This document shows positions 11,494 to 59,857 of a stretch of 64,000 bases of DNA, piece after piece; position 1 is the first letter of the stretch; each line of letters opens with the position of its first letter. This DNA comes from Coffea arabica (Eukaryota; Streptophyta; Magnoliopsida; Gentianales; Rubiaceae). Position numbers and translations under genes: made by a program. Location: positions 11,726,501 to 11,790,500 of the forward strand of contig NC_092323.1 in assembly GCF_036785885.1 (NCBI RefSeq), read 5' to 3'. Below the pieces are notes generated by a model, which saw only the letters and a list, made by a program, of their open reading frames with translations, was not told where the DNA came from and made no database searches.

Positions 11494-13793
<2,300 letters not shown>

Positions 13794-16435: not shown

Positions 16436-18920
<2,485 letters not shown>

Positions 18921-20389: not shown

Positions 20390-20672
20390 AACACGTCATA
20401 TGTCAAAAAAAAAGTAAGCTAACATAACAAAATTATCGTTTAACCACAAGAAAATTTATATTATTCTATCATAAGAAAATATCATATTATTTATTTCATA
20501 TTACATATGTAATTATATATGATACTATAAATTTTTATTTTCATATATATATATATACATATATATAAGTATGAAATCCAAGAATCTAATAAAATGAAAT
20601 TGGAAAATTGATTGAAAAGTTATAGAGTAGGCTCTCTTTAGCTTAATTTATACGTTAGTTTTAAATAATATC

Positions 20673-20887
20673 AGGGAAAAATCGTCAATTTAGTCCCTAA
20701 ACTTTTTTTTCGTCGATTTAGTCCCTATACATTATTTAAAGCCAATTTAATCCCTAAACTTATATTTCAGTTCCAATCAAAGAGCTTAGCAACGACGCCA
20801 CCGCATAATTTCCATCAGCTGCCCAATTGAGAAACCCAGAAGGGGTATTTTAGGGACTTCCATTGTGGAGCCTTAACCAAAATTAAC
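20673..20887 (+). repeat. Left terminal inverted repeat
   Basis: About 215 bp, matching the right arm in inverse orientation along nearly its full length with scattered substitutions and small indels. It starts AGGGAAAAATCGTC and ends within CCAAAATTAACC. Confidence 0.85.
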
Positions 20888-20975
20888 CGAAACAAAAGTC
20901 TCATGAGAAATACCCACCCAAAACCCAAAATGAAAACAAAAAAAATTTCTTGGACAAAAATTTCTTGCTCAGCTC

Positions 20976-21650
20976 TCATAGAAGAGGGGTGGTGGCCTGC
21001 TTAGCCAACCAATGCAGCACCTTCAACCCATCCTCGAATGCAGCCGGATACCGATTCTCAGGGGCTAACCTGTAACCAACAGCCAACACAATGACATCAC
21101 ACGCCTTGGCAATCCGCCTGCAAAAGAAATCATTCACCACTGAAGCATTGCTCCCACTCACGAACCCTCTACCGTGAAACTGCAATATGACGGGCAATTT
21201 TTGACAATTTTTGTTTCTAGGATTATATCCTCCGTAAACCCCACTATCCGATTTCAAATTGACATTGTCACTATTACAGCCGTAGCTATTTCTCCGATGA
21301 TTCTGATTTCGGATGGTCACGGTCGGCGTTGTGGTAGTGACTCCATTGGCAGAGCCATAGCTGTTCCGCCGGAGAAGAAGTTGGTTCAAATCGGATCTGG
21401 GATCAGAATAATCGAATGGTCGAATATCCTTAGCCCTTGATTTGATGGATCGGGACTTGAAAGCGGAATCGTGGCAGGAGTCAGGAAGAAAGATTCGAAG
21501 GGCGAGAGAGGTCAAGGGGTCGATGTAGATGTCCTTGGTGGCAACTCCGTCGGTGAAGGAAGGATTGGCGGCGGAGATGGACTCCTCACGAGGACGAGAA
21601 GTGACTCCAAAGGATGAGCTGAGGCCATCATCGACTTGAGGGTTTTGCAT
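20976..21650 (-). pseudogene. Captured carboxylesterase (CXE11/16-type) exon fragment
   Basis: An open frame of 224 codons matches the N-terminal part of plant class-I carboxylesterases of the CXE11/16 group (alpha/beta hydrolase, HSL type): the FGVTSRP and FTDGVATKDIYIDPLTSLALRIF blocks, then KLPVILQFHG, SNASVVNDFFCRRIAK, DVIVLAVGYRLAPENRYPAAFEDGLKVLHWLAKQA. The match stops after LAKQA and four unrelated residues precede the stop, so the nucleophile Ser, Asp and His of the catalytic triad are absent. The N-terminal membrane-anchor-like part of the parent is also missing. The oxyanion motif HGGG reads HGRG (Arg at residue 161, codon 21170-21168). It lies between long inverted repeats, so it is a transposon-captured fragment. 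It may be transcribed but cannot be a working esterase. Confidence 0.85.
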
Positions 21651-22091
21651 TCGGTTCTACCGCATTGGTCCTTGCTTTTATAATTCACCGCATAATTCCA
21701 CTACATTGGGTTCTGCGGGAGATTTGGGTTTTGGGTAGGTATTTCTCGATTGAATTGGGTTTTGGGTCTTTCGGGAGATTTGCATTCGGAGATTTGAGTC
21801 TTTCGGGAGATTTGCAATCGGTTCTGCGACATAATTTCCATTGCCAATTCTTTCGGGAGATTATGCCGCATTTGAAAAGCAAGGACCAAATTCAGACTCA
21901 TTGGATTTTGAAAACTCAATTGAATTTGGTTTGAGCTCAATTCAGAATCTGATGGAAACTCAATTGGATTGAATTGAGCTCAATTCAATTGAATTGAGCT
22001 GACTAGATTTGAAAACTCTAATTCACAACATCCAAGTGAAGTCAAGAATTGAATCTCGGGTTCTAAGAAACGGCAAGATTGCACCTTTTTT

Positions 22092-22371
22092 TAATTTTGG
22101 TTAAGACTCCACAATGGGAGTCCCTAAAATACCCCTTCTGGGTTGCTCGATTGGGAAGCTGATGAAATTATGTGGTGGCGCCGCCGCTAAGCTCCTTGAT
22201 TGGAATCGAAATATAAGTTTAGAGATTAAATTGGATATAAATAATGTATAGGAAGCTAAGCTCCTTGATTGGAATCGAAATATAAGTTTAGAGATTAAAT
22301 TGGATATAAATAATGTATAGGAACTAAATCGAGAGAAAAAAAGTTTAGGGATTAAATTGACGATTTTCCCT
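22092..22371 (-). repeat. Right terminal inverted repeat with 69-bp duplication
   Basis: Inverse of the left arm. Positions 22186-22254 are repeated exactly at 22255-22323, so this arm is about 280 bp. The identity of the two 69-bp units shows that the duplication is more recent than the divergence between the two arms. Confidence 0.88.
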
Positions 22372-24180
22372 AACATGAGGGACGGATCGGATCCTATTTT
22401 GCACTCTTATAACCGTGACAGCCTATGAACAGAATTTTTACTTAGGAAGTACAACATTTACAATGATATGCAAGAACGCCAATGTAGCCTCAGATCTTCT
22501 AAAAATATCTGAGGGGCGCAACCAATAAACTTTTGACAAAAATTTTTTTTTATATATAAAGATTTTCACATTGTTATGGGGTTAAAGATGAATTTTTCGA
22601 ACCTCAAGAGAAAGGTATCGACCCTACACCCTCATCTACGCTAGGGTCACCTCCTCAGAGGAAAAATTCAAGGACAATTGGCAAAATCTCCATCTTGTCA
22701 GCATTTAAGTTAGTTTAGTAGTACCCATCGATTGATGCTTGTCTAATGCAATAAATGAACCACAATCTTAACTAAAAACTTTGAGAATAATGTGATGAAT
22801 GAAATGTAAAAGTTTTCCTTCATAAAGTGGCATTTAAAGTCTACATAATCGATTAGAGAGACAAAATCAATACTACGAGTTGGAGTGACATTGAAAGGTT
22901 TTACAGCTATGAAATGGAATAATCTTTACCCAACAACCAAAGTACCAATCAATAGTTGGAGGAAATATGGTTTGCAAGCACTAGGCACTCAAATGCAAAA
23001 ATCTAGGGTGGGTCCAAAATGGAAATCTTGGAACATAAAGTTGGGCATGGCAAAATTTACTTGTGTCCTCTTAAAAGGCCAAATTTATCACATCAATCTA
23101 ATTCTCTTGCTGGTACAACAATATCGATCATCGCTCAAATGCGAGATAGGGTCCCCAATGTCCCATATCACATGTAACTGACATGTGGGATTTGTACGGA
23201 GAAGCAAAATGACTGTGCTCTAATGCTGAAAATGGAGCCCTCGCCCTTTCCCCATCGCCCCACACCTGCACTCACCTGCCTGGGGCAATTTTTTGTGTCC
23301 TTTTTCTTTTCTTTTTCTTGTTTTGAGGTCCCTTAAAAATTTGTTGATGCAAGAAATGGGAAGAATGCTTTTCCATGTTCTTAAGTAGATGTTTCAGCAA
23401 TTATTGGCTATTGGGTAGCATGATGCACATGGGAAGGGAGAGCAAAAGGTTGAATGTGCGTCCTGGGATCCCACTAAGGGTCTCAATTCTTGAAGTTTCT
23501 GTTCTGTTTTCAATATGGGCTGGCAAAAAATTGGTACAGGATCCCCCCCTTTCTATTTTTTTTTGGAAAAAATTGATTGTAAGATCCAAGAGCTGGTTGC
23601 TTCCGTTTTTCTTTTTGGTTCAGCTAGTAAGTTGCTGAACTATTGATGATGCGAGGAGAAAACTAATCTGAAGAATTCTTTATCTCCTTACCAATTGCCA
23701 GCTTGCTATGAAGATTTTTTCATATAGTTTTATGAATAAAACTCCTGTACATGGTTGGTTACATGCCATCGAGTTTAAATGCGTGCTACATATTAAAAAC
23801 TTGAAGAGTTATAATAAAAATTTTACAGATGTATCATACATATATATATATACACAGATCAACTATTATTATACTCAAATGGGAGAGTTTCTTGAAGAAT
23901 CTTTGTGCAAGTTCATCAAACACAAATTTCCAAGTAAAAAAGGTAGGAAATGGAATAGCTAATGCTTTCCATTTTATTCTTTATTCTTTTTGGCGGTAAA
24001 GGTCATCGAATTTTGGTTGAAGGTCATCGAATGCCAATCGAGTCCAGCGGGGAAGGGAGTCGCCATCAACTTCAAAGTAGAAACTTTACGCAGCTTAACC
24101 ATCTGGGCAAAAGGCTTTATCGGTTTTCCTCAGTGGATAATGTGGATAAAGTTTGGTGGAAATGGTGACCCCTGACCAAC
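22372..24180. other. Intergenic, no gene recognised
   Basis: AT-rich spacer. Open stretches at 22.9-23.2 and 23.4-23.6 kb match no family known to me. No RNA gene or complete element was recognised. Confidence 0.45.
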
Positions 24181-27659: not shown

Positions 27660-29480
27660 TCACGACGACTCACTCCCGTCCCTGAGTTGCCACGCAGAGG
27701 TAGCAATCAGCGGACGAGTGTGCCAACCTAGCATCAAGCACCCATCGTTCTCCTCCACCCGGTACCCATCCCCACCGGCAAACAAGGCCAACAACATGCT
27801 CGCTTGCTTGAACGCGTTGGATCCCAGGTGAACCGGGTCAAACCCGGCCGAGTTCATCCTCCCCCGCCACTGAGTCAAGGTCTCGTGGCGCTCAACTCGG
27901 TCCACGCCTTCGCAGGCCACCACGTTGCAAATCTGCCGCCCCAGATACACTTCAGACATCACCAAGTCCTGGCTGTTGGACTGCTGAGTCAACCCGGAGC
28001 TCTCCAACGAGTCAAACATTGTTGAATAATAATGCAACGCCTCATTAAACCTGTCCATGAAAACATTCCCATTATGATTAGCTTCTTGTTCCACGACCGC
28101 CACGATTTTTGGCCTCATGGATTTGATCGAATTCAGCACTTTATCGATTGCCCCAGGCCTAGACAACAGCCTATGCAGCTCGAAAACAGAATTAACAGCT
28201 ACAGCTTCAACCTCACACGGCCTGATTTCCAACATGGAAGCATCAAGATCAGCTAAAGAATTGGCTACAAATCCCCGAAATTCGAACTCCACCCCGATTG
28301 TTTTTGCCAAGTGCGCCAACTTCCACCCCACTTGCTGCAATGCATCTGAGTTATCCGGCTGAGGCGGGCCAATCCCGGTTAGCCTAAAAGCCGGTGGCCC
28401 GCCTGGCCTTAGAGCCAGAGCTTGCATGAGAGCCGGCCATTGCATCCCCTGTTTCAGACTAAAATCAATAACATGGACCCTGCTCGCTCCACTGAATGCT
28501 TCAAGAATAGCCTGATTAGCAGTAAAATGCGCGAATTTCAGGTAAGGGCAGCTCTCGTAGAAATGCATCTGAAGGACATCTGAGTAGGATGATTCGAGGG
28601 AATCTTGTGGGTAGATTTTGTAAATCCTTCGAGCTAGGGCCTCGGCAAAATAAGTAGCAACTTTTCTCATGGCGCCTACTTGTGAGACTGCTAGAATTCC
28701 TATGTGTTTGACGAGTGCATCTGCAACCTTCATATTATCCTGCTGAATAGCTTCAGCACAAGCCATTAAAGTATGGACAAGTCTGATGCCTGTTTCTTGA
28801 GAGTCCACGAGAACTACAGGCCTAGCTGCGTCTGAAGATGGAGGATTGATTGAAGAAACCGATATCCCACCAAAATCAGATCCAGTACTTGAGGGGGAGG
28901 ATTTCATCCTCTTGTTGGACTCGCAAGAAGGCGACGATTCTTTGGCATTTTCTTTACTAGTAGCACTATTATTATTGTTATTGCTGTTACAGAAAATAGC
29001 ATCACCTGGAATAGCTCTCAAATCATCATCAAAAATCAAATCTCTATCATTAGTAGCACCGTCAGTACCGCCAATAGCAGGTGAAATTTCGTCATAGCTG
29101 ATAATACTCGTTGCAGAAGAAGGGGGCAAATTAACGTTGTTGAGTTCAGACAGCATGCTCTGGACCCATCCGGAAAGATCAGAAGGGTTGTAATGAACAG
29201 TATCAGAGAGACAGGAAATCCCATCTTCCATAGTCGTCCCCATGACCCTCTCCAATTGCTCCAGCTTCTGGGCAACCTCCGCCATGTCTGAGGACTTAAC
29301 CTTGTACCCCAACACCGCCAAAAGCTCGTCCATCCCCGCATCTGCAGCTTGTTGCTGCTCTTCTTCCCACATCTTAGTTTTGGTGGAGAAAGGGGGAGGT
29401 GGGGAGGGCGTTGGGAGGTGGATTTTGACCATGGATGAGGATGAAGCCTCCCCTTTGTCACGGTTGCGATCCCTTTTCAT
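27660..29480 (-). CDS. GAI: DELLA protein (GAI/RGA type GRAS repressor)
   Basis: Intronless gene for a ~606-residue nuclear transcriptional regulator that represses gibberellin responses and is degraded after GA-bound GID1 and the SCF-SLY1/GID2 ligase bind it. The N-terminal DELLA motif ([20 protein letters not shown] at about 51) and the TVHYNP motif (about 94-99) are intact, so GA sensitivity is expected. A Ser/Asn-rich linker follows. The GRAS domain runs from about 232: [36 protein letters not shown] (VHIID region, about 335), the [15 protein letters not shown] block (about 529) and a C-terminal SAW region ending ATSAWQL. The start MKRDRN at 29480 matches the family. In-frame ATGs at 29486 and 29564 are also open. 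The leader is pyrimidine-rich in the transcript. No lesions seen. Confidence 0.96.
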
Positions 29481-29734
29481 TTTCATCGGAAATTTTGGGC
29501 GTTCGGGATAAAATGGAAGGTTTTTTCGCTTTAATTTTTGGACCAGGAGCAGCAATTGGTTCAAGAAACCTGGATGATATCGAGTGGACGAGTTCGGAAG
29601 TCTCTCGTGGTTTGCTTGGTTTTTCGCATCACTACTTTACAATATTTGGGAAATTTTTCTCAGGGAAATCTTGAGAATAAAATAACCATAAAATAGTGGT
29701 GGGAATAGTAGCACTAGTACAGTACCAGTAGTAC

Positions 29735-31768: not shown

Positions 31769-32214
31769 AGGGAAAATACCAATTTCATTCCAAAACTTTT
31801 TTTAGGTACTTATCTAGTCCCTGACTTTTATTTATGGTCAATTTAATAATTGAACTTCTTTTTACAACTCCAATTAAGAGTCTCAATAGTGGCATCACTA
31901 TTTAAAATCGATCTGACTCTTAATTGACTAACTAAATAGGGATATTATTAGAATATCACTCACAAGACTATATTAAACTAAGTAAATCATGTAAAAAATT
32001 ATTAGACAAAATTTTTAAGTAGTGTAAAAAATCACCAGATAAAAACTTTTTTAAAGTTTAATCTTGATTTTTTTATACTATTTATTTGATTTATTAGGGC
32101 CCATGAGTGACGTTCCTAAAATATCTCTATTTAGTTGGTCAATTAAGAATAAAAGTTAATGACTAAATCGATGTTAGTTAAAAAAATTTAGAGACAAAAC
32201 TGACCGTTTTTCCT
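31769..32214. mobile_element. Mutator-like MITE with 9-bp duplication
   Basis: 446-bp element starting AGGGAAAATACC and ending GACCGTTTTTCCT, flanked on both sides by an exact 9-bp repeat AAAGTTAAA (31760-31768 and 32215-32223). The arms are partly inverted around TAGTCCCT/TTTAGTCATTAAC motifs. Termini and TAGTCCCT-type arms are like those of the CXE-carrying element at 20673-22371, so the two belong to one superfamily. No coding capacity. Confidence 0.85.
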
Positions 32215-32223
32215 AAAGTTAAA

Positions 32224-35200
32224 AACATCATGGGTTTGCTATTTTGGACTTTTAAAATTTATTCCAACAAGTAAACTAAACAAGGATTTAAAAAGTGATG
32301 AAGACAGCGAAAGAGCATTTTAAAATTTAAAATTGAAATCAAGTCTCTAGAGGAACATGCTTTAAATTAAGTGCTGGATACAAGTCCAAATTTGATTGAA
32401 ACTCAATTACTCATTAAACTCTCATCTATTCACTTTCACGAGATATTTTATACTTACCCAAACGTAAATGGTGCAACTATCTTAGCTAGACTGAAATTAT
32501 CTATTCGACTAAAATGCTGCATTTGAGTCGAAATGTCCATTGAACTTGTCTTCAGTCAAAGTTCAAGCTTTCAATTAAATTGAACTTTAAAGATCACAAA
32601 TTTATTAAACTTCAGTTTAACAAAAGAAGTCATATTCGAAGAAGAAGCTGACATGAGAAAAAAGAGTTATAAAGCAAGGATGCTATTTGAAAATAGAAAT
32701 GGGAAATGTTACCTTGCTTTTATAATTGGGGTTGGAGTGTGTCTACAAAAAAAAAGTGCTTTTAAGCACTAAAAGTACCTGTAAAGTGTTCGATAACTAA
32801 TTTATCATAACTTAAGTAGCTCAGTTTTTTGTAACTCAAAATACTTTTATAAATTACACTTGTATTAGAAGCACTTCTTTATAACTCACCATAATTTCAA
32901 ATGGAGCCTTTATATCAATGTTTTTAATTCCAAGATTATATATGTTTTTTTTAGTTTGAAATATCATTTTTTGCCATAGTGGATTGTTACACTATATTTG
33001 TTGATACTGATATCTAACTATTTTGGATACTAAGAAAACTATTAATAATTTCTCAAAAAATATTTTTCAACAGTAAATTCAAAAGATGCATAAAGCTCTG
33101 CCAGGCTAAAAAATACTCGAGCCTATCATCTAGCCTTGAGAAAATATTTGAGCCGCCAAATTAGTGAACTGCCTCAATTCATTAGCATACTAATTTGGGG
33201 CTGAATACAGTTAAAATAAATGAGCAAGGTGCGAAATGGCACTGGGGCAAAATTGAAGCGGCAAAATGCAAAGTGGTCTTACCCCAATCCTCTGCAGTTA
33301 TTCAGTCCTATGATTGCGTGCTCTGAACAGTCTACAAAGTAGAGTGAGGTTCTGAAAATCTGATATTTTTTTACAAATTTCTGTTCAGCAAAATAACCTT
33401 TTATTGGTCTATGTCCCACTCGAACTGCACGGGAGGGTCAACTTTCCTTTGCACGCTCATTCAGGCATGTCAACGACACGGCTCCATAGAGAAGCCTAAA
33501 GGGTTACAGAGTGCAATCCACGCTCGGAATATGACAACTGAGCCGTAAGGTCGGTGGGACCCATGCTAACGAGGTCGAGAGATTCAGACGTCAACGTCGA
33601 TTTTTGGACCTCCGGATGGAGCCCACCCATTGAAGGGAATTACAGGAAAGTTGTGATAGAGAGGTTTTAAAGTGCTTTCATCCGATAAAAATCAGCTTGA
33701 ATGAGTAATTAGGTGACTCATTGGATCGGTTTGGATAGGCAATTATTTAACACAAACCCCGCCCTCGCCTCCCCAGCCCAACCACCCTAAAAAAACTCAA
33801 AAAAAAAAAAGGCCATGATAAATACTTTGTTTTTTTTTTAATCTTATCAATCACTTTTTTATATTGCATACATACCACAACAAATGTATTATCAGTTGAA
33901 TTTTTTTCCAAATAATCTTATTGAAAGTGCTATAATATTGATTTTTTTAAATTTATAATAATATAAAATTTGACCTTTTTATTTTCCGAAAAAAGAAATT
34001 TTGAACCAATTAGAAAGGGTTATTGAGTTGATGGATGGAAAGAGACCGAAAATAGCAGCACATATGTTAATATATGAGGCAAAAAACCGTTTTCTTAGTT
34101 TATTAATTAGACAAAATATTCAAATACTTCAACTTTCATTCCACGAATCATAAGTGGTTAATCATTATTTGATCATATATATACAAATATATATATATAT
34201 ATATTGTAATATTTGCTAATATATTTAATATGCTACTGCAGTTAGTTAGTTAATATATTTTTCGTGTTTGTACGATCTATTAAAAAAAATGGCTTATATG
34301 AATTGCAAATCCATATTTATATAGTTTACTTTATATAGGATGACATTTATAAGTAGATGGGAGTCAATTGCAATTGGGCTTTTTGCCACTTGCTATGTTT
34401 TTTGCACGGATCATGATTTTGAGGCGAAATAATTATATGTTTTTACCCTACCTAGTGAATTGCGAATTACTAAAAACTTTTTCTCCTTCGAAAGCAGGCA
34501 CTCACCATTCAGTTTATGTAAGACTAATGACATGGGTTAGTTGAATCTTTGCTGTTTCCAATTTAAGTAGAACCACGCAATTTGTTGATACATAAATCTG
34601 TAAGAAGAAGAAGAAGAAGATTCAATGCACAAGAAAAGATTGAATGCTAAAAATTCTAATCTTAATTGGATTACCGATTGAGTTTAGTCAACAAAAAACG
34701 TCATATTATTAAAGTTGCAACTTGTGATGTCAAGGTCGAGGAATGCACCCACCTCTTTCGCTCATTCCGTTAATTCTAAAATTAGAAATCAAACAGAACA
34801 CCATCAGCGGAAGATAGACACTAGTAATGGAAGACGGCCGTAACATCCCATGCTTTCTTTTTTTAGTATCGAAGGAGGCGTGATAAGCTAATGGCTTGCC
34901 TCTGAGACTAAGCTAAGTTTCCTAATAATTGCTTCGCTATCAAAGACTCCATCTTAAAATTTCAATAAAATGCTTAAAGAAATAAAAGGGGGACACGTTA
35001 GAAAATAGAGGACAACATAGGTAATAATAGGAATGTAGGAATAGGTGCCCTTAAGCATTTTGAAATCATGACACTTTTTTTTTAAAATACTATTTTATAG
35101 TCCTTTCTAAATGCCATGCCCTCGAGTTGAATTGATCATTAGATGGTGAAACAAATATTTTTGACCCTTAAATTATATTAATTCTAAATATTTGATTTTT

Positions 35201-52107: not shown

Positions 52108-52710
52108 TCATGATCAGCTGAAAGATGTTTCCACTTTTGAGGTGGATGGATTTTCGTCCTAATCAGAAACGACGCTCTACACTTTGGAGAAATTGTAATG
52201 TCACTTCAATATTTTGTATTCACTGCCATTTTATGATGAAAAGTCATTATTCATTTTTCCTCTCAATATTTTGGACACGGACTTTTATGGGTATCAACCC
52301 ACCAAAATTAAAATTTCTACTCTAAAAACTTAAATTTGAGTGTAGCGGTGAGTAGGTTTGTCTCCTCATAGACGGGATGATTTATGTTCTTCCAAACAAG
52401 AATTAAATGGGGGGTTTCAGAAAAAATTGTAATTAAAAAAAATAATTACCATAAATAAAAATAATTAAACTGAAACAAATTAATTTCAAATTAATAACAA
52501 ACAAGCTCTAGTCAAGGATATAATTTCGGAAGTGGTTCATACGGTTGCTCATTGATTGCAATAATTATTTCATATATTCGTTAATATACAGGTTATAGTT
52601 GACAAACACGCGATGACAACCAATTTTTCTTTATCGTCTTAATAGTTAAGGTACACCTGTTAACTATTTTCCTAACCAAAAAACAACTTCAGATACACTC
52701 GTAGAATTTA
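52108..52710. other. 3' flank of the first lyase
   Basis: Lyase 3' UTR and AT-rich spacer. No other feature was recognised. Confidence 0.5.
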
Positions 52711-53222
52711 ATTTCTTGATCGTATTAGAAACTAGAAAAATTCTGTTTTAATCAATAAACACATTATCAAGATTTATTTAAATTAGATCATATGTTTCTC
52801 TAACATGAAACCAATCATGTTGGTTACCACAAATTTAAGATAATTTAACAATTACGGATTTATCTGTCTTAATTGACAATAGATTGTTAAGTTGGATTAA
52901 ATATTGGGTGCCCATGATATTCAAGTAACAAAACAACAATGAGAAATTAAATTAGAAATTAGAAAAACCCTATTCTAATTTCTTGATTGCATTAGAAACT
53001 AGAAAAACCCCAATCTAATCAATAAACACGTTACCAAGATTTATTTAAATTGGATCATATATTTCCCTAACATGAAACCAATCATGCTAGTTATCACTAT
53101 TTTAATATAATTTAACAATTACGGATTTAACTATCGTAATTGACAATAGATTGTTAACTTGGATTAAATATCGGATGCTCATGATATTCAAACAATAAAA
53201 TAACAATGAGAAATTAAATCAG
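52711..53222. repeat. 267-bp-period tandem duplication
   Basis: Two copies, about 52711-52950 and 52978-53222, share a collinear series of blocks: TTAGAAACTAGAAAAA, CAAGATTTATTTAAATT, AACATGAAACCAATCATG, TTTAACAATTACGGATTTA, TTGACAATAGATTGTTAA and AACAATGAGAAATTAAAT. Identity is high but not perfect, so the event is not very recent. It lies between the lyase gene and the LINE. Confidence 0.85.
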
Positions 53223-53368
53223 AAAACATACGAATATTAACGAATAAAAGAAATAGATAAAAATAATTAGATCTCACAGTTGTAATTGAACCAAATCCCT
53301 TATTACCCCTTAACTAAAAAGAGAAAATTAATTGTTCGTCGTTGAGAATAACTCAGACAATTTCATTA

Positions 53369-53381: not shown

Positions 53382-53457
53382 ATAATGAGGCCAAGTATTT
53401 TATTTTTCTATTTACAGGTGACTTGAAATGATGTGAAAAAAGCCACCGCCGGCCAAC

Positions 53458-55713
53458 ATGCAAACCCATTCACCGCCGGCATGTATCCCAGTCTCCATTT
53501 TTCAAAGCTCCAGACCTTCCACTTCCCCTACTCTTAAAAAAACCTCCAGTGACTGCTTACCCTCAACCCCCCCACAGGAAAACATTTCAAAAACATTGTG
53601 TGAGGCTGCTGAAATCCCTCGTGCTTCTCCATGTAGGCCTGGCCTCTCTTACAAAGACGCACTAAATCAAGATTCCAGACCTCTACCTGAAAATTTGAGA
53701 ATTGAATTCTCCCCTAACTTCAATGGGCAGGCTACCTCTGCAGTTCATTCTTCAAATTCTCTTACGGAGGCAGATTTCCAAAGAATCAGAGATCCTTGGA
53801 AACAGGCTTTGATTGTAAAAACTTTTGGCAGATCTCTTGGTTTCAAATTTTTTAATCAGAAAATCCGTGAAATTTGGAAGCCCCAGGGACATCTAGAGAT
53901 CATTGACTTGGGTAGGGATTTTTTCATCACCAGATTTTCAGACCACTCTGACTTTAGCAGAGTTCTAACGGGAGGTCCTTGGTTTATCAATAGCTTCTTT
54001 CTCACCATCCGCCTCTGGGAACCAAACTTTAACCCAGAAGAAGCTAAAACCTCTTCTGCAGCAGTCTGGGTTAGGCTCTCCCACCTCCCCATCGAATACT
54101 ATGATCTGCAGATACTCATGAAAATTGGCAACCAGATTGGCAAACTGCTAAAGGTGGATGCCAAAACTGCTTCTACAGAGAGAGGACGATTTGCTAGAAT
54201 TTGTGTCCAAATGGACATAAGCAAACCCGTAGCTCAATTCATCTCTTTGGGGTCCTTCAACCAACCTGTACAATATGAAGGGATCACCTTTTGCTTTGGA
54301 TGTGGTTTGGTTGGGCATACAATTGATCGGTGCGTCAACACTATGAAGCAGCAATCCTCCGATGAGGACCTTGCTAAGAATATTCCTAGTGAATATCCCC
54401 TACAAAATCATCAAAATTCCACGGATGAAGGCTCCAAGCTCGAGACGGATTCGGAGTACGGCCCCTGGATGCAAGTTCACCTGAGGAGGCCAAAGTACAA
54501 AAAATTTTCAAACCTGGGCCGTACGTTTGGGGTTAAAAATTCAAATGGCCAACCTAACGGTTTAGCCAAAAGAGAGTGGGTCCTGCGTACCAAGCTTTCT
54601 GGCTCACTTGGTTCACCCCTGCCTCCCCTGTCTCCAAAGAGCCCAGCAAAAGAACTCACTCTGCATACTAACCGCAGGACCACCCAACCTCCCCCTTTGA
54701 CTTCAGCCTTACCAAACCAATCTACCATTGTTTCTAGGGCCTCCACCACTGCTAATCCAAAGACTACTTCGTTCCAGACTAGTAACCATCAACCCCAACG
54801 ACCAAATGTCAACCTCCCACCATTTCCATCCGTACCTTCTCTCGTACGGTCTGAGGGGGAGACCTCCAAGGGAGAGACCTCCCAACCAACACTCAGCCCC
54901 AACACCACCCTGCAACCGACCCACAACAGCACCACAAGCACCCCAAAATTGCCCTTCATCCCCCAACAATCAACCTGCCTTTCGCCGTACAAGAAGAAAT
55001 CCCCGACAAATGCTTCCTCAAAGGCCACATCAACAACCCCAGCCCCAGAACCCAGCTCAGCTGCCTCACCTTTCTCCTCCTCGAGGGAACTTTGCTCAAC
55101 CTCTCTGTCAAGAGGAAAATTGGACCCTCCAGAGCTCCTTTCCTATGATGGAGCCCAAAGTCCCGGAGTTCCTTCTGAAAAGCAAACAAAACTCAGAGAT
55201 CACGCTGGGATTGGTCCACTTTTGGACTGCAGGGCCAAACATAGCGGTAACCATGACTGCAGATCCGTACCAACAAGTTCGCGGCTTGAGGAGGGAGAAT
55301 TACATGAGAGCAGTCAAACACATCTCGCAGGAAACCTATTCCTTCTGGAAGGATATGAAAGTGATGACCACATCCAACAATCATGCAGGGGAAGCCCTGG
55401 GCTCAAACCCAAAACCAGATTCAAAGGCCCTTGGAAACATGGTTTGGAGGATAGAAACTCTGACTTTGAACCCCTTAAGCTTAAGGTTGGGTACTCTAGA
55501 AGAAGAAGGGGTCATCTTTCTACCCATCCCAGATATTCTGGGAGTAAAACTAGCTCTTTTAGCCTTCGACATCCCAGGGGCAGACTGCAAAGAGTTTCTA
55601 GTAGAACTTTATCCAAAACAAGTAAAATCTCAGGGTTGGAAGAATGGTCTAAACATAGACCAGGAAAGGCCACGGTGGTTGGCCCAGTGCAGTTATCAAA
55701 ACAACTCCTATAA
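53458..55713 (+). CDS. LINE ORF1 protein (DUF4283, CCHC zinc knuckle)
   Basis: A 751-residue open frame starting 76 bp after the LINE 5' end. Residues ~105-250 form the DUF4283 domain of plant L1 ORF1 proteins (WKQALIVKTFGRSLGFKF, GGPWFINSFFLTIRLWEP, AVWVRLSHLPIEYYD). A CCHC zinc knuckle follows at C279, C282, H287, C292. The long C-terminal part is Pro/Ser/Thr-rich, low-complexity and probably disordered. It acts as the nucleic-acid-binding chaperone of the retrotransposition complex. The stop at 55711-55713 lies 4 bp before the first ORF2 ATG. No lesions seen. Confidence 0.9.
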   Translation: MQTHSPPACIPVSIFQSSRPSTSPTLKKTSSDCLPSTPPQENISKTLCEAAEIPRASPCRPGLSYKDALNQDSRPLPENLRIEFSPNFNGQATSAVHSSNSLTEADFQRIRDPWKQALIVKTFGRSLGFKFFNQKIREIWKPQGHLEIIDLGRDFFITRFSDHSDFSRVLTGGPWFINSFFLTIRLWEPNFNPEEAKTSSAAVWVRLSHLPIEYYDLQILMKIGNQIGKLLKVDAKTASTERGRFARICVQMDISKPVAQFISLGSFNQPVQYEGITFCFGCGLVGHTIDRCVNTMKQQSSDEDLAKNIPSEYPLQNHQNSTDEGSKLETDSEYGPWMQVHLRRPKYKKFSNLGRTFGVKNSNGQPNGLAKREWVLRTKLSGSLGSPLPPLSPKSPAKELTLHTNRRTTQPPPLTSALPNQSTIVSRASTTANPKTTSFQTSNHQPQRPNVNLPPFPSVPSLVRSEGETSKGETSQPTLSPNTTLQPTHNSTTSTPKLPFIPQQSTCLSPYKKKSPTNASSKATSTTPAPEPSSAASPFSSSRELCSTSLSRGKLDPPELLSYDGAQSPGVPSEKQTKLRDHAGIGPLLDCRAKHSGNHDCRSVPTSSRLEEGELHESSQTHLAGNLFLLEGYESDDHIQQSCRGSPGLKPKTRFKGPWKHGLEDRNSDFEPLKLKVGYSRRRRGHLSTHPRYSGSKTSSFSLRHPRGRLQRVSSRTLSKTSKISGLEEWSKHRPGKATVVGPVQLSKQLL

Positions 55714-55717
55714 TCCC

Positions 55718-58700
55718 ATGAAGATTCTCATGTGGAATGTAAGGGGGGCGAGTAGCTCCGCCTTTAGGAGTCATCTTATGCAACAACTAGACATTCACAA
55801 ACCCAGCATAGTGATTATCACGGAGACAAAAGTTTCTGGTGACGTTGCCACCAACATGTGTAAAAGCCTTCCCTACACCAGATTTTCCATCATGGACGCT
55901 ATAGGTTTTAAGGGCGGAATATGGATCTTGTGGGATGACCATGAAGTGCACTTGGATATCCTTCAAAAGACTGAGCAGGAAATCCATGCTCTAGTCAAGG
56001 TACTGCCCTCTTCCCCCTCCTGGCTTTTAAGTGCAATATACGCTAGTCCTAATCTTGAATGTAGAAAAATATTATGGAACAACCTATGCTCTGTTGCTAG
56101 TACTTTTTCCTTTCCTTGGCTCTGTATTGGGGACTTCAACGAAGTCCTAAACTCTTCTGAAAAATTTGGGGGGAAAGGGGTTAATTCAAAAAGAATCTCT
56201 CTGTTTAGAGACTGCATCAACAGCCGTGGCCTCATGGACTTGGGCTTTGTTGGGGCTAAGTTCACTTGGCTTAACAAAAGATATGATGGGGGATTAATTT
56301 ATGAAAGAATTGATAGGGCCATTTGTAACATGGAGTGGAGAACCCTTTACCCTGAAGCCTCTGTTTACCATCTGGTTAGAACACGTTCTGACCACTGTCC
56401 TATCCTTGTTAAACTGCACAATGCTACCCCTCCTCGAAATCTGAGACCTTTTAGATTTGAAAAATTCTGGTTTTCTAACCCCACCTTGGAGGACATTGTT
56501 CTCTCTTTCTGGACAAACTCAACTGACTTTCTTCATGCCATTATTCCCCCTTTCCAAGAGAAATTAAAAGTTTGGAGCAAAGTGTCATTCCCCAACATTT
56601 TCAAAGAGAAAAAAAGGCTTCTAGCCAGAATTTCAGGAATCCAAAAAGCTCTCCAAATTAGACATTCTAACTTTCTGCTTTGCCTGGAAAATGAGCTTCA
56701 AGCCCAATTTAAATCCATTTTAAGCCAGGAAAAAGACTTGTGGGCTTTAAAGTCTCGAACCGATGCTGCCCTTTGGGATGATTTGAACTCTAAGTTTCTA
56801 CAAACTACCACCATTTTTGTAGGAGAAGAGCTAATAAAATCTTGGGGTTGAAAAATACTGTTGGCGATTGGACCTCTGATGATCGCAGCCTTAAGATGCT
56901 TATCACAAACCACTTCAACAATGTCTACACCACAGATTTTTCCTATTCCTATTTGTCTCCTCAATCCTCCCCCAGTAGCACCCCAAAAGTTCCAGCAGAT
57001 GCCTTACCCACTCTTCTAGCTCTTCCTTCTGAAAGGGAAATAAAAAAAGCTGTCTTTAGTTTCAAGCCTTTCAAAAGCCCAGGTCCGGATGGGCTCCACC
57101 CTTTCTTTTATCAAAAATTCTGGTCCGAAGCCAAGAACCCCATCCAAAAATTCATTCTTGACTCCTTCCAGGGACACCACTTTCCTGTTGGAATTAATGA
57201 TACTTTCATCTGCCTCATTCCTAAATGTGATTTCCCTGTAAGCATCAACCAATACAGGCCTATTAGCCTCTGTAACTCCTCTTTCAAGATTTTAACAAAA
57301 ATTCTAGTGAACATGATTAGACCTCTAATGAACTCCCTTATTTCCCCCTACCAAGCCAGCTTCATTCCTGGTAGAAGAGCTTCAGATAACGTCATTATTG
57401 TTCAAGAGGCTATCCATAAGCTCAGGATAAAAAGAAAAGGCAAAAAAAGCTTCTGTGCTTTAAAGCTGGATCTTGAAAAAGCCTTTGATAAACTTGAATG
57501 GAGCTTCATTAAAGAAGTCCTTACCCTCTTTGGTTTCCCTCATGATTTAATAAACCTGATCATGAACTGCATTACCACTTCTAGATTGGCAATTTTGCAT
57601 AATGGGGTGCCAACTGATTGGATCTTGCCTTCTAGAGGAATTAGACAGGGGGACCCCTTGTCCCCCTATATTTTCTTACTCTGCATGGAGTACCTTTCTA
57701 TCTTCATCACAGAAAAATGCAATCAAGGGAGTTGGGTACCTATAAAATTTGGAAGGGAAGGGCCCGAAATGACGCACTGTCTCTTCGCAGATGATGTCAT
57801 CTTGTTCAGTAGCTGTGATTTGAGCTCCATCACCACCATAAAAGAGGTCTTAGACCATTTTAGTGTAAAATCAGGTCTTAAGATAAATCCCCTCAAATCT
57901 CATATCTTTTTTCTCTTCCAATACCCCCTCTGATACTAGAGATGAAATTTCTGCCACCCTCAACATTTTTGAAACTGATGATTTTGGCAAATACTTGGGG
58001 TTTCCCATTCCACATAGTAGAATCTCGAAAAACTCCTACAAATTCATTTTGGAAAAGATGCAGAAAAAGTTGGCTGGTTGGAAGGCAAATTTAATTTCTT
58101 TTGCTGGAAGAAAAACTATTATCCAACAAGTTGCAGCAGCCTTGCCTATATATTATAGTCAAGCAGCTCCCTTACCTGCCTCATTGTGTAATGAGCTTGA
58201 TAGAATCCAAAGAAATTTCCTCTGGGGCACCACTGATGAGAAGAAAAAACTTCATTTAGTAAATTGGGATTCTGTGTGCAAACCTAAAACTTTGGGTGGC
58301 CTAGGACTCAGAAAGGCTTCTGATAACAACACTGTGCTCCTTGCTAGACTCTGTTGGAGACTAGTCAAGGAACCTAAAAGCCTTTGGTCTCAGATTTTAC
58401 AACATTGTTACATTGACAACAATAGTACTACCTCCAGCCATAACCTCACTTTGAAAAGAGGAAATGGATCCATCAATAAAAAATCCTTGCAGAAGGGATT
58501 AGAGTTGTTTAACCAAGGCATCATGTGGAATGTCAGAAATGGGGAGGAAATTCTTCTATGGTGGGATGACTGGACCGGTAGAGGCCCCCTTAGATCAATG
58601 ATCTCTGGGCCACTCACCCAAGCAGAAACCAAAATGAAAATCAAGCAAATTTTTGGAGACTTTGATGCTTGGGATTTTTCTTCTCTCTCTTTTGAACTCC

Positions 58701-59857
58701 CGGACAATATTTGCAGATTCATTCAAAGCATCCCAAGGCAGTTAATAGGTAATCAATCTGATACTCTAAGATGGAAAACCAACCCAAATGGATCTTTCTC
58801 TGCCAAATCTGCCCTTCTTATTTTGGAGCAGGATCTAAAGAAAAAGCCCCCTCAAGGGGATTTTGAACTATGGTCTTGGGTTTGGAAGGTCAAAACAAAG
58901 TCCAAGGTTAAACATTTCCTTTGGCTAGCTTGCCAAAATAGACTGCCTTCTAAGGCACTTCTCCTTAAGAGAAATATCATTTCTGACTCTTTTTGCCCTC
59001 GCTGCAACCATTCCTGTGAAGACTCAGCTCATGTTCTTAGATATTGCCCACATGCTTCCTCCTTTTGGCAAAGCCTCAACATTCCCACTTCCTTTGATCT
59101 GGATTTTACAGTTTGGCTTAAAAATGGTTGTCTGTCCAAGCATATTTCTCCATTTTATGGAATCCCCTGGGGTACTGTTATCTCTTTTGCCTGCTGGAAT
59201 CTTTGGATTGCCAGAAACAAAGCTATTTTTGAACCATCTAACCTCTTCTCCATTCTGCACAATACTCTAGCAATGGTGGCTGAATACTCCTTTTTAGGAC
59301 CTATTCAGAACATAGTACATCCTAGAACAGAAGTGCTCATTAACTGGATTCCCCCTGAACCTTCCTGTTTCAAAATCAACACTGATGGATCTTCCATAGG
59401 GAATTCGGGTCCAGCTGGATCAGGTGGCTTGATCAGAAATCACCTAGGACACTGGATAGCTGGGTTTAGCAGAAAATTGGGACATGCTACCAATATTATT
59501 GCTGAGTTGTGGGGGATAAGGGATGGACTATCCTTAGCTTCCTCTCTAAACTTGCAAAATGTTGAATTAGAAGTTGATGCTAAAACTGCTCTAGACTTGC
59601 TTAAATCGGCAGATACCTCAACTCATGAGTATGCTTCAATTATCTTTGATTGCAGGTTCCTGATCTCTGCCCTGCCGAAAGTCATACTTAGACATGCTTA
59701 TCGAGAAGCAAACCAGTGTGCTGACAGATTGGCAAAACTGGGTGCTCAACAAGACGTGAATTTTCTATGCTATGAAAGTATTCCTTATGCTTTGAGAAGT
59801 CTAGTAGATGCAGATTTTAAGGGAATTTGTTTCCCTCGTTTTATACCTATAACTTAA
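55718..59857 (+). pseudogene. LINE ORF2 (endonuclease, reverse transcriptase, RNase H), two frameshifts
   Basis: ORF2 starts at the ATG at 55718, 4 bp after the ORF1 stop. Domains in order: AP-type endonuclease (WNVRG, ETK, GDFNEV, SDHCPI) at about 55.72-56.42 kb; reverse transcriptase (KSPGPDG, YRPISLCN, KLDLEKAFDKLEW, RQGDPLSP, FADD) at 57.0-57.9 kb; a zf-RVT region (FLWLACQNRLPSKALL, CPRC) near 58.9-59.0 kb; and a plant-type RNase H (NTDGSS, AELWGIRDG, EVDAKTAL, HAYREANQCADRLAK) to the end. The reading frame moves at two places, in the T-run near 56814-56820 (net loss of one base) and in the T-run near 57906-57912 (net gain of one base), so the endonuclease and RNase H share a frame while the RT lies in another. 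Key catalytic residues appear intact. Assembly error in homopolymers is a real alternative. Confidence 0.88.

Follow-up and report, generated by a model that had tools for sequence, protein, structure and literature searches.

Pack-MULEs are a known and abundant kind of plant element, and the excerpts of PMC3310237 count 2853 of them in rice and 220 in tomato. The same excerpts recognise multi-TIR Mutator-like elements (MULEs) by terminal inverted repeats (TIRs) of at least 50 bp and a target-site duplication (TSD) of 9-11 bp with at most 2 mismatches. For the plant carboxylesterase CXE15, the accessible text of PMC11294565 places HGGG at residues 83-86, with G85-G86 as the oxyanion hole, GXSXG at 167-171 and the catalytic triad at S169/E271/H302.

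We analysed a stretch of 64,000 nucleotides of Coffea arabica (the window), in which positions 20674-22370 hold an element of ~1.7 kb with long inverted ends and an esterase-like open frame between them (Table 1). This anatomy makes it very likely that we are dealing with a Pack-MULE, a Mutator-like element that is non-autonomous and has captured part of a CXE-type carboxylesterase gene. The captured segment would amount to ~0.6 kb or more of coding sequence from the 5′ part of such a plant gene, and the placing in the MULE superfamily is drawn from structure.

Table 1. Positions of the parts of the element, its candidate duplications and a second element in the window.
Feature	Position	Strand	Remarks
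Candidate left TSD, TAATATCAG	20666-20674	+	One-base overlap with the first G of the left arm
Left terminal inverted repeat	20674-20886	+	Begins GGGAAAAATCGTCAATTTAGTCCCTAAACT
Three degenerate 28-bp tandem units	20682-20768		Inside the left arm
Probable inner continuation of the left arm	20887-20929	+	Inverted match to 21723-21774
224-codon open frame, carboxylesterase (Abhydrolase_3) N-terminal fragment	20976-21650	-	
Counterpart of the left-arm inner continuation	21723-21774	-	
316-bp stretch between two right-arm pieces	21775-22090	.	Largely tandem and palindromic repeats
Right terminal inverted repeat	22091-22370	-	
Two identical 69-bp tandem copies	22186-22254 and 22255-22323	-	Inside the right arm
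Candidate right TSD, TAACATGAG	22371-22379	+	
Exact 10-bp duplication, AAAGTTAAAA	31760-31769 and 32215-32224		Flanks element B; found by eye
Element B, second short divergent MULE-like element, 445 bp	31770-32214	+	Ends resemble the arms of the element

An earlier note on this DNA had described inverted repeats of ~215-280 bp around the frame, and the arms, of 213 and 280 bp, bear this out. When the left arm was aligned with gaps to the reverse complement of the right arm, one of the two 69-bp copies being left out, 192 of 210 aligned positions were identical, with 3 further gap positions. The difference in length comes from a perfect 69-bp tandem duplication in the right arm, on account of which Blast returns two overlapping registers, one with 83.6% identity across 213 columns and one with 89.7% across 116. 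Scored locally, the two 300-nt ends reached 254, with no value above 32 among 300 Markov shuffles, and the two halves of the whole element likewise scored 254, with a maximum of 34 in 500 shuffles. The arms, at about 212 bp and with a left start at 20674/20675, are long TIRs of the MULE kind, and both ends carry a terminal GGGAAAA followed by subterminal TTTARTCCCTAAACTT units. That the two 69-bp copies are identical suggests that most of the arm divergence is older than this duplication. The arms may already have been different when the element inserted, and for this reason their Jukes-Cantor (JC) distance of 0.091 was not converted to years. According to the excerpts of PMC3310237, TIRs are often near-identical in young elements, which would argue against a very recent element here, but Pack-MULE copies tabulated in that paper themselves have outer TIRs at 87-94%.

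The inverted homology probably runs inward past 20886. In a self-comparison of 20880-22100, 20887-20929 matched 21723-21765 without gaps over 43 nt (79%, E 4e-6), most of the signal lying within about 25 nt, and a gapped alignment takes this pairing out to 21774. The repeats in the adjoining 316-bp stretch include those at 21915-22000 and a perfect 24-bp palindrome at 21977-22000. This stretch shares short matches with 21644-21696, and at E up to 0.01 it has no match outside itself within the window. On the simplest reading, the TIR would be ~255 bp long, with its right side interrupted by later filler, and would enclose a core of ~793 bp (20930-21722) that contains the captured segment. When gaps were made cheap, the alignment went a different way beyond 20886 and did not by itself reveal an interruption of 316 bp, a reading that comes from the self-comparison and the other gapped alignment.

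The two candidate TSD copies agree at 7/9, 8/10 or 9/11 positions depending on the length chosen, with 2 mismatches, which places the element at the edge of the rule excerpted from PMC3310237. Because agreement of at least 7/9 has a chance of 0.045 at random window positions over the 30 offset pairs searched (0.0056 for two offsets), the candidate TSD alone is modest support. Element B begins with GGGAAAAT... and ends in aGGAAAAA..., and exact identity of a 10-mer, as in its flanking duplication, occurs in 1/50,000 random position pairs. The left arm of the larger element aligned to the left end of element B with a score of 57 and to its right end with a score of 45, neither of which was reached in any of 500 shuffles. 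Element B, with its similar ends and an exact 10-bp TSD, strengthens the case for the MULE superfamily.

No transposase was among the Pfam matches in the six frames of the element including its arms, as expected for a non-autonomous element. An Rfam search of the window, run at gathering thresholds, yielded 0 matches. Elements of the hAT group have 8-bp TSDs and short TIRs; membership in that group is disfavoured by the length of the arms and by the exact 10-bp duplication around element B.

The 224-codon frame that the earlier note had picked out is indeed open, compared with 5, 8, 11, 13 and 17 stops in the remaining five frames across these positions. Its residues 155-219 match positions 1-63 of the 210 in the Pfam profile Abhydrolase_3 (E 1.8e-20), which puts a host-gene fragment inside the element, as in a Pack-MULE; in a six-frame Pfam scan of the element, a single frame had any match, and this was the esterase. 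The best PDB match is 2o7r, a CXE carboxylesterase (E 2.9e-17), over residues 19-57 (weak, 10 bits) and 148-216, and CXE15 (8vca) is matched over its residues 65-144. Demonstrable protein homology covers residues of about 19-57 (weakly) and 142-220.

The best-matching stretch ends mostly at residues 214-222 (best 60 of 111 PDB matches), and a match end at residue 196 is found for Pfam COesterase only. Of the breakpoints earlier placed inside the conserved region, the C-terminal one is confirmed, with matches stopping at ~214-222; on the N-terminal side, homology begins by about residue 19. As for the identity of the fragment, the N-terminal part and the match to plant CXE proteins (2o7r, CXE15) stand, and the narrower labels 'CXE11/16-type' and 'N-terminal exon only' are kept here as assumptions of our own. 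Residues 58-141 (about 85) are without a counterpart in the three PDB alignments listed, an insert that is presumably a feature of the CXE11/16 branch. The structure of the CXE16 gene was not found in the accessible text of PMC9004025.

The frame reads HGRG where the family has HGGG, an Arg occupying the place of one oxyanion-hole glycine. It contains no GXSXG, and the Ser, Asp/Glu and His of the triad are all missing. Similarity to CXE15 extends no further than residue 144 of that protein, whose GXSXG lies at 167-171, and the fragment therefore stops short of the nucleophile. An active esterase, with HGGG and a Ser-His-Asp/Glu triad, is ruled out by these missing catalytic residues, and the captured frame, as its residues indicate, is catalytically dead.

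The GC content is 49.5% in the frame and 36.6% in the window, which would be in line with the GC-rich captures described for Oryza in the excerpts of PMC4858842, yet any coding exon would lean likewise. Searches for relatives of the frame gave 8 pattern-matched stretches in a viral contig collection and 26 in a prokaryotic one, with 0 confirmed in either, and the TIR pattern had 0 matches in the viral collection; absence from such DNA says little.

The earlier note had itself named an arrangement that would speak against a capture, namely two independent MITE insertions on either side of a decayed resident CXE gene. A related short element, element B, does exist nearby, and tblastn detects no second copy of the frame in the window (no other match at E up to 1), but we consider this arrangement very unlikely. 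A complete MITE consists of two mirrored halves. When folded on itself, the left arm scored 20, a value reached by 24 of 500 shuffles, and the right arm 16, reached by 266 of 500 (141 of 500 without one 69-bp copy), whereas the control, element B, scored 58 and the whole element, mirrored in the same way, 254, both unmatched in 500 shuffles. Lenient scoring left this pattern unchanged for the arms, element B and the whole element; the test bears on complete MITEs, truncated ones lying beyond its reach. When the ends alone were folded (80-100 nt), the scores were 20 and 16 compared with null maxima of 25. Because the 80-nt ends of element B themselves score only 26 (reached by 11 of 500 shuffles), this short-end test is less telling. 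The inverted homology, moreover, probably extends past the arms into the interior.

A resident CXE gene at the locus is itself unlikely. Six-frame scans of the 4.6 kb to the left and to the right gave no further Abhydrolase_3 match at E up to 0.1, although remnants could be hidden by long introns, by strong decay or in an N-terminus outside the Pfam model. Matches were found in 0 of 6 frames on the right and in 2 of 6 on the left, both to the GST N-terminal domain. These two GST pieces, in two frames at 18031-18364 (-) about 2.3 kb from the element, are probably two exons of one GST gene. With neither arm folding on itself and the flanks free of esterase matches, the two-MITE arrangement is unsupported, and the arm anatomy, the candidate 9-11-bp TSD and element B with its exact 10-bp TSD all agree with a Pack-MULE capture, so that the main interpretation of the earlier note is very probably right.

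Within a Pack-MULE, the frame could by now be a functional gene, coding for a selected small protein or acting in trans as a regulator of its parent, which we regard as very improbable. Such a role would fit the 224 open codons, set against 5-17 stops in the other frames, and the intactness of the frame, which has a probability of 0.008 if all of the neutral arm divergence follows the capture. However, this value, from a rough simulation with assumed indel rules, a JC distance of 0.091 and 3 arm gaps, hinges on an indel rate taken from those 3 gaps, and stops alone give 0.40. The probability that the frame gains neither a stop nor a frameshift is 0.008 at full divergence, 0.099 at half, 0.29 if a quarter of the arm divergence followed the capture and 0.63 at a tenth. 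TIR identity is also a loose clock: in the excerpts of PMC3310237, the outer TIRs of PM-ZIBP range over 87-94% in four rows of this 14-copy tomato family. In addition, protein-coding Pack-MULEs are called rare in the accessible text of PMC8277862.

The intact frame suggests a later capture, arms that already differed or selection, and late capture or arms already different would be the economical answer; we take the open frame as a hint, not as evidence of function. It is speculative and highly improbable that selection has kept the frame open for an action on the parent gene, be it as an N-terminal decoy protein or as a hairpin that serves as a source of siRNAs. A foldback or inverted duplication of another, non-transposon kind that encloses the esterase fragment by chance would suit the rearranged right side with its tandem and palindromic repeats, but similar ends recur on the separate element B with its exact 10-bp TSD, and we give this origin hardly any credence.

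As a Pack-MULE, the element would depend for its movement on a MULE transposase that acts in trans and binds its arms, none being encoded between them. The esterase fragment was probably picked up through template switching while a break within the element was being repaired, along the lines of published models. According to the accessible text of PMC8277862, the proof of the gap-filling model comes from the Drosophila P element, and how far it applies to plant Pack-MULEs is still to be explored. The most likely fate of the captured frame would be that of a neutral passenger, decaying eventually. Transcribed together, the arms would form a stable duplex (-289 kcal/mol), and read-through might, speculatively, give a long arm hairpin and siRNAs directed at the element and possibly at the parent gene. 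Production of siRNAs from the arms is plausible, and equally so for any element with such arms; for maize, the excerpts of PMC13317346 describe captured sequences as siRNA reservoirs. Any function of the element is speculative.

Other features were observed in the window, among which a DELLA/GRAS gene, a polyprenyl synthetase frame and a reverse transcriptase frame point to plant nuclear DNA. A MITE-like inverted repeat at 11640-12295 (arms 11659-11742 and 12172-12255, 88%; outer ends by eye TTAAGGAGAGAGATAAAACTTTTAT / ATAAAAGTTTCATCTCTCTCCTTAA) lies directly upstream of a polyprenyl synthetase frame at 12414-13793. A single open frame at 27660-29636 (-) covers positions 1-374 of 374 of the GRAS profile (E 3.8e-137) and 1-66 of 69 of the DELLA profile (E 6.4e-34), and its nearest solved chains are DELLA proteins. 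Four overlapping long frames at 53437-59857 (+) have the appearance of a LINE-type retrotransposon, with a reverse transcriptase at 56794-57933 (RVT_1, E 6.9e-37); directly upstream, at 52709-53225, is a tandem 267-bp unit in 1.9 copies with 87% matches.

In the open-licence literature, searched by the arm sequences and by CXE or carboxylesterase together with Pack-MULE, we found no prior report of this esterase capture. The element very probably adds one Pack-MULE to those already described, which is routine where rice has thousands and tomato hundreds. Its main weight lies in annotation: the 224-codon frame could be mistaken for a gene or for a member of the CXE family, and, judged by sequence, it is not a working member of that family. 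Greater importance would follow only if transcripts, small RNAs or Ka/Ks revealed an action of the fragment on its parent.

As in the Pack-MULEs of rice, tomato and Arabidopsis, for example tomato PM-ZIBP in the excerpts of PMC3310237, TIRs of about 210, perhaps 255, bp and a candidate 9-11-bp TSD delimit an element of ~1.7 kb with part of a host gene inside. Unlike in those elements, the right arm here carries a partial 69-bp tandem duplication and adjoins a 316-bp repeat-rich stretch, and the TSD is imperfect. The captured frame resembles the plant CXE carboxylesterases (2o7r; CXE15, 8vca) in the N-terminal strand region, weakly, and in the oxyanion-hole region, but differs from these enzymes in that its match stops at CXE15 residue 144 and in that it has HGRG for HGGG.
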